A DNA stretch of 64,000 nucleotides from positions 17,191-81,190 of the forward strand of contig MZGQ01000019.1 of assembly GCA_002085115.1 (NCBI GenBank), in the 5' to 3' direction. This DNA is from Desulfococcus sp. 4484_241 (GTDB lineage Bacteria; Desulfobacterota; Desulfobacteria; Desulfobacterales; Desulfosudaceae). This document shows, piece after piece, positions 1,205 to 61,168 of this stretch (within the stretch, counting starts at the first letter, position 1; the number at the start of each line of letters is the position of its first letter). The position numbers were made by a program, and so were the translations under genes. Below the pieces are notes generated by a model that did no database searches, was not told the origin of the DNA, and saw nothing but the letters and a program-made list of their open reading frames with translations.

Positions 1205-2052
1205 AAACAAGAAAAAGACACGACAAAGAACGTATGAGAAGGGGCGTGTATATACTGCCCAACCTGTTTACGACAATGAACCTGTTTGCAGGTTTTTTCG
1301 CCGTGCTGTCCGCGATAAACGGTAATTTTGAAAAAGCCTGCCTTTTTGTGATAGGCGGCATGGTGTGCGACATCCTGGACGGCAAAACAGCCAGATTAAC
1401 AAAAACAACAAGCCGGTTCGGGGTGGAGTATGATTCCCTGGCGGATCTCATCACATTCGGCCTTGCCCCTGGTATAATGGCATATCTTTGGACACTGAAA
1501 CAGTTCGGCAAACTCGGATGGCTGGCCGCCTTGCTGTTTTTGGCATGCGGCGCTCTCCGGCTGGCGCGGTTTAACACAAACGTGGACTCTGCAGACAGCG
1601 CGTTCTTCACAGGGCTTCCCATCCCAGGCGCGGCCGGCATGGTTGTTATGACGATTCTGTTTTCCATGCAACTGACCGGTGGCAACGCCCTTAACAGGGG
1701 CGTAGCAATAATCATATTGGTTGGCATGTTCACGCTTTCCTTTCTTATGGTAAGTTCGATACGCTACACCAGTTTCAAAAAAATGCCCTCTGTGCTGGTC
1801 AATGCAAGGCATTTCAACATCCTGGTGATCGCGGTTCTTTTAATGGTCCTGATAGTCCAGGAACCGGTTGTCACCCTGTTCATCCTTATACTGCTGTATG
1901 TTCTTTCCGGTCCGGTTATGTCTGTCCGGCTTTTCTTTGCCGGCAAAACACCGGCTGCGGAATACGATGAAGAAGAGGAAGAGATGGACGATCTGTCGCC
2001 AATTGGCTACGACCCGATGGACACGGATGAAGACAGAGTTTACCATACCTGA
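1201..2052 (+). CDS. pssA: CDP-diacylglycerol--serine O-phosphatidyltransferase
   Basis: PNLFTTMNLFAGFFAV start and CDP-alcohol phosphotransferase motif (CDILDGKTARLTKTTSRFGVEYDSLADLITFG); overlaps psd stop. Confidence 0.93.
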   Translation: MKTRKRHDKERMRRGVYILPNLFTTMNLFAGFFAVLSAINGNFEKACLFVIGGMVCDILDGKTARLTKTTSRFGVEYDSLADLITFGLAPGIMAYLWTLKQFGKLGWLAALLFLACGALRLARFNTNVDSADSAFFTGLPIPGAAGMVVMTILFSMQLTGGNALNRGVAIIILVGMFTLSFLMVSSIRYTSFKKMPSVLVNARHFNILVIAVLLMVLIVQEPVVTLFILILLYVLSGPVMSVRLFFAGKTPAAEYDEEEEEMDDLSPIGYDPMDTDEDRVYHT

Positions 2053-2162
2053 TCTCCAAGTAATATCCATCATATCCCAATAAAGTCCCTGCACCGGCCG
2101 AAATAACAGGCAGGTAACCGGACAACACTGTAAAATTCAAAATATGAAAAGAGAGGAGACCC

Positions 2163-3227
2163 ATGGGGAAAAGTTACAAAATAGCGGTAATACCGGGGGA
2201 CGGGACCGGCCCTGAAGTGATTGCAGAAGGGATAAAGGTCCTTGATGCCGCATCTGCAAAATTCGGCTTCACCCTGGAATACACCAATTACGACCTGGGA
2301 GGAAAACACTATAAGGCAACCGGCGAAATACTGGACGACGAAACGTTGGAAAAACTGAAAAAAGCCGATGCAATTTTTCTTGGGGCCATTGGTCACCCTG
2401 ATGTAAAACCGGGCATACTGGAAAAAGGGCTGCTGTTGAAGCTGCGATTTTCATGCGACCAGTATATCAATCTCAGGCCGGTCAGGCTATACGAGGGGGT
2501 AAACACTCCCCTCAAGGACAAGGGGCCTGATGATATAGATTTTACCGTCATAAGGGAAAACACGGAGGGGCTTTACGCGGGCGCCGGTGGGGTACTCAAA
2601 TACGGCACTCCTGACGAGGTCGCCATACAGGAATCGATTAACACCCGCAAGGGGGTTGAAAGGTGTATACGGTTTGCGTTTGAATATACCCGTCAACGCA
2701 ACAAACACAAAAAACTCACCCTGTGCGGCAAAACCAACGTGCTTACATATGCGTTCGACCTGTGGGAAAGAACGTTTAATGAGGTTGCCGGGGAATATCC
2801 TGATATTCAGACCGATTATGCTCACGTTGACGCTATTTGCATGTGGATGGTAAAAAACCCGGAATGGTTTGACGTTATAGTAACAGACAACATGTTCGGC
2901 GACATCATTACCGATCTTGGAGCCATGATCCAGGGTGGAATGGGCGTTGCCGCAGGAGGCAACATCAACCCTGAGGGGGTCTCCATGTTTGAACCGATAG
3001 GAGGATCAGCTCCGAAATATACCGGCAAGGGCGTCATAAACCCGATCGCTGCAATAATGGCCGGCAGCCTGATGCTTGCCCACATAGGTGAACAGGCCGG
3101 GGCAAAAGCCATAGAAGATGCTGTTATGAAAACCATTAAAAACGACATGAAAAGTGTGGAGGCCGGCAAGATGGGAATGAGTACAACCCAGGTAGGCGAT
3201 TGCGTGGCCTCATATATCAACGACTAA
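2163..3227 (+). CDS. leuB: 3-isopropylmalate dehydrogenase (isocitrate/isopropylmalate dehydrogenase family)
   Basis: [56 protein letters not shown]. Confidence 0.85.
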
Positions 3228-3246
3228 ACTTAAAGAGAGGAAACAA

Positions 3247-4269
3247 ATGGCGGAAAAATCTTACAGTGTTGCGGTAGCGGGGGCAACCGGGCTCGTTGGG
3301 AGCCAGATGCTTGCATGCCTTGCTGAAAGGGATTTTCCGATAAAATCTATAAAGATGCTTGCATCGGCCAGGTCGGCGGGGCGCACGATTCAATTCAGGG
3401 GAGAATCCTTCACGGTCGAGGAACTGACCGAAAAATCGTTCAAAAACGTTGATATAGCGTTTTTCTCAGCAGGTGGCGCGGTAAGCAAAAAATTTGCTCC
3501 AATAGCCGCGGCTGACGGGTGTGTTGTGATAGACAATTCGAAAACCTGGCGGATGGATCCCGATATACCCCTTGTCGTGCCTGAAGTAAATCCGCATGCG
3601 GTCGCAGGTTATTCCAAAAAAGGAATCATCGCAAACCCCAACTGCTCAACCATCCAGATGGTAGTGGCCCTGGCCCCCATACACAGGAAGGCGGGTATAA
3701 AGCGAATAGTGGTCTCGACATACCAGGCTGTTTCAGGAACCGGCAAGGCTGCTGTCGACGAACTGATGGAGCAAAGCAGGGCTATACTCGAGTCACAGCC
3801 CATTGAAAAAAAGGTCTACCCCCACCAGATAGCATTCAACTGTCTTCCCCACATAGGATCGTTCCTTGAAACCGGATACACAGACGAAGAGATGAAAATG
3901 GTAAACGAAACCAGGAAAATCCTGGAGGATGACGGGATAGCCGTAAGCCCGACAACCATAAGGGTCCCTGTTTTTTACGGCCATTCCGAATCTGTCAACG
4001 TGGAGACAGTTAATCCCATAACACCCGACGAGGTGCGTTCGGTGCTTGAAAAAGCGCCCGGTGTCAAGGTGGTTGACAATCCGTCATCGAACATCTACCC
4101 CCTTGCCGTTGAAGCCGCAGGCAGGGACGAGACCTTTGTCGGAAGAATCCGCAAGGACACTTCCGTTGAAAACGGAATCGACATGTGGATCGTGGCGGAT
4201 AACATACGCAAGGGTGCAGCGACAAACGCAATACAGATAGGCGAAATTCTCATAAGAGACTACCTTTGA
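3247..4269 (+). CDS. asd: Aspartate-semialdehyde dehydrogenase
   Basis: GATGLVGSQML, NPNCSTIQMVVAL active-site motif, VFYGHSESVNVE. Confidence 0.95.
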   Translation: MAEKSYSVAVAGATGLVGSQMLACLAERDFPIKSIKMLASARSAGRTIQFRGESFTVEELTEKSFKNVDIAFFSAGGAVSKKFAPIAAADGCVVIDNSKTWRMDPDIPLVVPEVNPHAVAGYSKKGIIANPNCSTIQMVVALAPIHRKAGIKRIVVSTYQAVSGTGKAAVDELMEQSRAILESQPIEKKVYPHQIAFNCLPHIGSFLETGYTDEEMKMVNETRKILEDDGIAVSPTTIRVPVFYGHSESVNVETVNPITPDEVRSVLEKAPGVKVVDNPSSNIYPLAVEAAGRDETFVGRIRKDTSVENGIDMWIVADNIRKGAATNAIQIGEILIRDYL

Positions 4270-59700: not shown

Positions 59701-59970
59701 TTACCGATCGGTCTCTTTTGTTAGAATTCGGTCCAGCTTTTCATACAACCTGTCAAATTTCTTTTCTAATTGTTTATCCTCTGTATGGTTTGCCACTGCT
59801 GCTATAAAGCCTAACAAATCGTCAAGCTCATCAATTGAATATCTTGCAATTAGATATTTCCCCCTGACCTGTGCAATTTTCAATGCTTTTGTGAGCTCCA
59901 AATCGGCAAAGGGGTGATCAACAATCAAATCTCTTTCTTGAGGTGTAAATTTTATTTCGATTTTCTTCAT
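59701..59970 (-). CDS. Small conserved-looking hypothetical protein (89 aa)
   Basis: ERDLIVDHPFADLELTKALKIAQVRGKYLIARYSIDELDDLLGFIAAVANHTEDKQLEKKFDRLYEKLD; good composition and short spacing to neighbours. Confidence 0.6.
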   Translation of the reverse strand: MKKIEIKFTPQERDLIVDHPFADLELTKALKIAQVRGKYLIARYSIDELDDLLGFIAAVANHTEDKQLEKKFDRLYEKLDRILTKETDR

Positions 59971-59983
59971 TTTTTATTTTGCA

Positions 59984-60095
59984 GATAATGGTTTAGCTCA
60001 CCAGGCGCAGGAGCTGCCAGAAGACTAAGGCTTTTAACAACAATGCATTTCAAAAATGTCACAACTCCTATGCTCTGGTGGAACTGATGGTTATC
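59984..60095. repeat. Large imperfect inverted repeat, attC-like or other folded element
   Basis: GATAATggtttagctCACCAGg...ctCTGGTGgaactgatggTTATC, with inner pairing of GCAGGAG with CTCCTATGC; fills the gap between the 59701 and 60105 ORFs. Confidence 0.55.
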
Positions 60096-60104
60096 ATCGC
60101 CGCC

Positions 60105-60866
60105 TTATATCAATTCAGGGGCATATTGACGAAGAGCTTTTTTAACTTTTGGATTTCGTTGAATGATCATCTCATACAAATAGCTCCAATATTCAGAAAC
60201 CAAAAGGTTACCTTGCATATTTCGTCGAACGAAGTATGATGTTTTCAAAATTCTATGATTTCTTAAATCATCAAGAAAAATCGGGCTGTCAAGATTACAC
60301 ACACGTTCAATTTTCCCAAAATAGCATTTACCATCACGCCATTGTGCATCCCCACGTTCAAGTTCGCCTGTGAAGCGAAATATTTCAGAGATACTTTTTT
60401 CAGGTACACAGCGATACATAAGCAACAGATCACCAGGTGTAACCTGTTTTGATAAGGCCCAATTCAACTTGTCATTTTCATCTAAATGAAACCACTGATC
60501 TTTAATTGCTGGTTGAATCCATATTTTTACACCAACTCCGAAATACCTCTTTAATTCTATGATTTCTAATTTCTTCGGGGCTTCAGGCCAGTCGTGATGC
60601 CAACAGACAATGCAATCACAATCATCTGGATCATGTCGATGAGCTTTAAAATTTGACGATTTGAATTCAAATTCAATCCTTACTTTCTTTTCAACATTGC
60701 CGGACCTTCGGTATGCGATACAATCAGGAAATTGTGGCCTTATCTTTTCAACCTTGAATCGGAGCTTTTTAGCCACATGGGAAAAAAGAAAGACAACACC
60801 AAGCTCATTTTCTGGAGCATATTGAAGAGGTGAATTTTGCAATGTTATGGGTCGAGTTTTTTTCAT
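60105..60866 (-). CDS. Predicted PD-(D/E)XK nuclease-like protein with EVE-like C-terminal domain
   Basis: FPDCIAYRR...VRIEFEFKSSNFKAHRHDPDDCDCIVCWHHDW; C-terminal LNWALSKQVTPGDLLLMYRCVPEKSISEIFRFTGELERGD resembles EVE. ORF opens at 60953, but MKKTRPITL at 60866 is the likelier start. Confidence 0.6.
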   Translation of the reverse strand: MKKTRPITLQNSPLQYAPENELGVVFLFSHVAKKLRFKVEKIRPQFPDCIAYRRSGNVEKKVRIEFEFKSSNFKAHRHDPDDCDCIVCWHHDWPEAPKKLEIIELKRYFGVGVKIWIQPAIKDQWFHLDENDKLNWALSKQVTPGDLLLMYRCVPEKSISEIFRFTGELERGDAQWRDGKCYFGKIERVCNLDSPIFLDDLRNHRILKTSYFVRRNMQGNLLVSEYWSYLYEMIIQRNPKVKKALRQYAPELI

Positions 60867-60871
60867 ATTAT

Positions 60872-60942
60872 GATAACGCCCCGCATAACCCTCTGGCAAT
60901 GAATCGCAGCGGAATTGCCAGGCCAAGTTGATGCGGTTGTTC
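60872..60942. repeat. Imperfect hairpin resembling an integron attC site
   Basis: gataacgccCCGCATAACcctCTGGCAATgaatcgcagcggaATTGCCAGgccaaGTTgATGCGGttgttc: nested R/L-box-like complementary arms with a perfect 8-bp inner stem. Confidence 0.55.
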
Positions 60943-60984
60943 AAGTAAGCCACTCCGCGGCAGGGAAGCGGCGTCCCGTTGTTT

Positions 60985-61168
60985 AAGGAAGACCTTCAAT
61001 TATCAGGTTATGCCAAACGAAGCATTGAATCATACGTTGGCTCCGTTTTGCGGCTTCAGCGCTTTTACAATCAACCCATTGGAAAATATCACCGAAAAAC
61101 AGCTTCGTCAATACCGGCAGTGCTGTCAAAGTGACTTTGGCTGGAGTGCCGCGACGTTGCCGCCTTGA
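60985..61168 (+). pseudogene. Remnant of a tyrosine recombinase N-terminal SAM-like domain, frameshifted
   Basis: Frame 1: FKEDLQLSGYAKRSIESYVGSVLRLQRFYNQ; continues in another frame as NPLENITEKQLRQYRQCCQSDFGWSAATL, then stop. Confidence 0.65.

Follow-up and report, generated by a model that had tools for sequence, protein, structure and literature searches.

A gene for a putative nuclease with an EVE domain lies between two large hairpins in this genome. The question raised by the locus is whether this compact unit is an integron gene cassette, as an earlier note on the stretch analysed here (64 kb, hereafter the window) had suggested, and whether the hairpins are attC recombination sites. 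The open reading frame of 253 amino acids (60105-60866, minus strand) and both hairpins were found where that note had placed them. The hairpin upstream of the gene is called attC1 (60871-60945, minus strand) and the downstream one attC2 (59983-60096, minus strand).

Anatomy and statistical support of the attC sites

The two hairpins share one plan. Read on the minus strand, each is composed of an R'' box (AAC), a 5-nt spacer, an L'' box with an extra base, an L' box, a 6-nt spacer and an R' box. In both, the extra base of L'' is at position 4, after three pairs. The same plan was found in class 1 integron reference sites from plasmids and in an integrase-linked array of the class (L060). Site attC1 reads CTTGAAC-AACCG-CAT(c)AAC ... 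GTTATG-CGGGGC-GTTATCA from 60945 to 60871. Its R boxes are GAAC (60942-60939) and GTTATCA (60877-60871), its L'' is CAT-c-AAC and its L' is GTTATG, with the stem CTGGCAAT/ATTGCCAG. The spacers are AACCG on the R'' side and CGGGGC on the R' side, and the CTTG part of its R'' (CTTGAAC) belongs to the terminus of a neighbouring IS91-family element. Site attC2 reads TGATAAC-CATCA-GTT(c)CACCAG ... CTGGTGAGC-TAAACC-ATTATCT from 60096 to 59983, with R'' TGATAAC, L'' GTT-c-CACCAG, L' CTGGTGAGC and R' ATTATCT. All box and spacer features of an attC are present in attC1, and all but the core G, replaced by A at 59989, in attC2. Sequences related to attC1 occur in 61 of the 291 genomes of the class.

The imperfect core boxes already described in the earlier note are evident here, both sites being degenerate. 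Boxes of the AAC/GTT type also exist, as R boxes, but the pair taken for the outer one, CCGCATAAC/GTTgATGCGG, corresponds to the L boxes, and the R boxes lie further out. The orientation had been considered ambiguous; it is not, since both exact sites are on the minus strand.

What sets both hairpins apart is attC-specific geometry and not folding energy, which is unremarkable (z of about -1.4 and of -0.7 to -0.9 for the two hairpins). A fixed-geometry descriptor, designed with both sites already known and accepting A at the core G, gave exactly two matches of at least 20 in the window, attC1 and attC2, against 0.2 per shuffled window. Because this descriptor is post hoc and tolerant at the core G, a learned log-odds model is the fairer test. 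It is loop-free, was trained on 23 other attC sites and was applied to every position, length and both strands of the window, where attC2 ranked first (23.6) and attC1 second (20.4). In 300 shuffled windows, matches of at least 20.4 had a mean of 0.08, and a single shuffle had two. Both sites are weak compared with the reference sites, which scored 28-58, except for one, evidently mis-registered, that scored lower than the sites in the window. A model match within the gene (60455-60349, 19.3) was rejected as an attC, lacking AAC/GTT. The loop-free score was adopted because our home-made short-loop covariance model (R1), which had no match in the window and does detect the sites of two other loci (L012 and L013), misses long-loop sites. 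An Rfam scan gave nothing beyond one non-significant match.

Ordinary folding energies, the silence of R1 in the window and the loss of the core G in attC2 are what would be expected if the hairpins were ordinary terminators or REP-like palindromes, standing by chance beside a horizontally acquired gene. Against this, the attC-specific geometry is rare, and a REP-like repeat would not pair varied inner stems with constant spacing of the R and L boxes. The comparison with other genomes bears on the same point.

The cassette, its relatives and its cluster

The cassette extends from the G^TT of attC1 through the last base of attC2 ahead of TT (59989-60876, minus strand). Nine homologues of the gene were found in other genomes. 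The closest, L009, shares with the window a block (60878-60089) with 98% DNA identity and none beyond, which begins at the core GTTATCA and stops at the core TGATAAC. The upstream flank in L009 is a different attC-like hairpin, and downstream an IS91-family element starts directly after the TGATAAC of the same cassette, which is why the identity ends there. The L012 homologue has a strong attC site on either side, in L011 the gene is framed by GTTAGGC and GCCTAAC, and three attC sites are present on the contig of L013. Terminators or palindromes placed by chance are hardly credible in view of an identity that ends at both cores and of homologues flanked by strong attC sites. With its G^TT, its own attC, flanks that differ between the window and L009 and an attC-flanked homologue in L012, the EVE-nuclease gene is a real mobile gene cassette, with two worn attC sites at its borders.

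No attC was detected with the homologues L010 and L014-L017, so that the gene family is not exclusively cassette-borne. Plasmid, phage and viral-contig collections had no homologues of the gene, and among 58 relatives just two others match it, partially. For the transporter downstream, the family's two other genomes contain no close relative, and hence no empty site could be demonstrated. Two small overlapping genes, toxin-antitoxin-like and with no family match, are found behind an attC in L009 (3981-4501).

An ORF of 89 amino acids downstream (59701-59970, minus strand) is probably a second cassette gene. This is suggested by the cassette start TTATCTG at 59988-59982, by the starts of its homologues, present in seven other genomes (GTTATCTG in L138 and L142, CTATCTGC in L139), and by the attC-like hairpin upstream of the homologue in L138 and L139. 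The order of the cluster would then be attC1, the EVE-nuclease cassette, attC2 and the 89-aa cassette. Further attC sites occur in the same genome, on contigs C47 and C3 and, next to ends of the IS91-family element, on C51 and C68. The loci on C3 and C47 (L071 1-1600 and L070) contain more attC cassettes, including a gene for a HigA-like antitoxin, preceded by a toxin-like gene.

No integron integrase (TIGR02249) above the cut-off was detected in the genome, the assembly being 87% complete, and neither the window nor the assembly has a complete integron, with intI and attI by the array. Pfam rve is also absent from the genome. Integron integrases were found in 139 of the 291 genomes of the class. 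The neighbourhoods of 20 TIGR02249 genes of the class (L050-L069) mostly have few or zero attC sites; L060, with seven, is a clear exception among the high-scoring loci.

Integron integrases recombine the folded single strand of attC at G^TT. Judging from the attC anatomy and from the block common to a second genome, the cassette would have arrived as a circle, recombined at this point by an integron integrase. Whether it can still move is doubtful, given the degeneracy of both sites and the lack of a detected integrase. Clusters of two or more attC sites lacking an integron integrase are termed CALIN (IntegronFinder 2.0, PMC9024848). With its two attC sites and no integrase found nearby, the cassette cluster is CALIN-like, and it resembles a CALIN also in its attC geometry, gene-attC spacing and co-directional genes, as does the source genome in having toxin-antitoxin cassettes at other places. 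It differs in that there are just two sites, both degenerate and one without its core G, and in that an IS91-family end adjoins the first site. The idea of an integrase-less cluster carrying a nuclease/EVE gene is thus borne out by the attC geometry, the core-to-core block of L009, the attC-flanked homologues and the further attC sites of the genome.

Predicted function of the cassette protein

The protein has a C-terminal EVE domain by predicted fold. This part matched EVE structures in Foldseek (E 8e-7, about 1e-6), and the VcaM4I restriction enzyme was among the matches. Pfam EVE reached up to 4.5e-5 within the family and was under the cut-off for the window protein, whose sequence does not match any solved structure significantly. 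The N-terminal part is PD-(D/E)XK-like and a putative nuclease. Its fold matches were all non-significant, and the modification-dependent restriction enzymes MspJI and AspBHI led them. The family alignment covers the whole protein length, and in ten aligned homologues E21, D48, E65 and E67 are invariant, with K/R at 69. In structure models, the conserved residues lie on a helix and strands, ordered as a PD-(D/E)XK core would be; this is the order of elements expected for that core fold.

The invariant nuclease-like residues, the EVE fold, the fold match to VcaM4I and the non-significant ones to MspJI and AspBHI make modification-dependent restriction the likeliest function, one that we consider reasonably probable. 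A role as an RNA- or nucleotide-processing enzyme or as a toxin is rather unlikely. EVE does resemble the YTH and ASCH domains, which bind modified RNA or act on nucleosides, and half of the ten homologues in the alignment have R in place of the motif lysine (K69 in the window protein). However, four acidic residues are invariant in all ten, and VcaM4I, the nearest structurally solved EVE-nuclease, restricts 5hmC and 5mC DNA (PMC12707154). As a modification-dependent restriction enzyme, the protein would act as a single chain, in which EVE may serve to bind a modified base and the other, PD-(D/E)XK-like domain to cut. VcaM4I is an EVE-domain enzyme of this type (PDB 6YEX; PMC12707154), and the window protein, by fold, likewise combines EVE and nuclease in one chain, although with a PD-(D/E)XK-like nuclease part at the N-terminus.

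An IS91-family element beside attC sites

An IS91-family element, of which a decayed end is left (60946-61163, plus strand), adjoins attC1 at the AAC of R''. The remnant has 86% identity to copies on contigs C51 and C68. This end consists of a terminal hairpin GCCGCggaGTGGC, followed by a 5' fragment of a tyrosine recombinase gene from about 60979, and is found in many genomes of the class. The element contains genes for an IS91-family transposase and a XerD-like tyrosine recombinase. The transposase (NF033538, 359 bits) was identified in the L009 copy (1297-3851); the window keeps the element's other end only. Further loci are L119, L130, L133-L136, L120 and L129. The recombinase was rejected as an IntI: the IntI-specific insertion of about 30 amino acids is missing in comparison with IntI1 and one IntI of the class, and it scored 177 bits against an integron-integrase cut-off of 265. 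Locus L111 has two tandem copies of the hairpin that forms the left end of the element, with AAC before each.

One-ended transposition could have moved the gene as a passenger of this element and not as an integron cassette, considering that element ends lie next to it in both the window and L009 and that IS91-like elements are able to carry flanking DNA (PMC9330008). This is very unlikely, since the 5' boundary of the gene is the attC G^TT in both loci, with differing DNA beyond, and no element is seen alongside the L011 and L012 cassettes. With the gene as an integron cassette, the element would have joined afterwards at the AAC of the attC1 R'' and would then have been largely deleted, the remnant being the evidence of this step.

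Six copies in genome G089, nearly identical to one another, delimit the element: it follows ...NNNNAAC, begins with the hairpin, ends with GCCGCGTAGCGGCTTACTTG and is followed by AAC. The junction site may be chosen by the transposase, the target of IS91 transposases being of the GAAC type, or by the recombinase. To the left of the element, most flanks resemble R'' (AGATAAC, ACACAAC, GTACAAC, GCATAAC, ATATAAC; elsewhere GTCTAAC and GGCTAAC), and the right flanks are often the remainder of an attC. Of the distinct right junctions in the class, 18 of 44 scored at least 14 as attC, compared with 7 of 1077 GAAC sites of other kinds; some of the junctions had been sampled with a GAACAA-containing probe. 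Among the junctions reached via the recombinase alone, 8/22 had such a score and 15/22 were attC-like by eye. Insertions outside attC are also seen. The element appears to home on attC sites, and this preference for R'' is described in none of the titles and abstracts that open-access literature searches on IS91 and attC retrieved.

Tentatively, and at somewhat less than even confidence, we propose that this IS91-family element, equipped with a tyrosine recombinase of its own, parasitises integron arrays as a specialist, joining at the R'' AAC and leaving a hybrid attC on either side, so that cassette genes could exchange attC bodies. A candidate case is given by the window (59983-60096) and L009 (1290-1300 and 3852-3924), where one gene with an identical R'' (TGATAAC) has different downstream attC bodies. 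In L009, the element is positioned at the joint between R'' and the differing body. Insertion sequences of the IS1111-attC group and group IIC-attC introns likewise target attC sites, at a fixed position (PMC11187229, PMC7923331). The element beside the window cassette is similar in this respect, but it has an IS91-family transposase and a XerD-like recombinase and joins at the R'' AAC.

Overall, it is highly probable that an integron gene cassette (59989-60876), encoding a putative restriction enzyme, lies in a short, decayed cluster without an integrase, which the element joined later. Integron cassettes and CALINs are already known, and the greater novelty lies with the element and its apparent attC homing. 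With this cassette, a widely shared, uncharacterised EVE-nuclease family is added to integron cargo, in a class where integrases are common. These arrays are also linked to a mobile element with an apparent preference for attC, which would join IS1111-attC insertion sequences and group IIC-attC introns as one more kind of element that targets attC.
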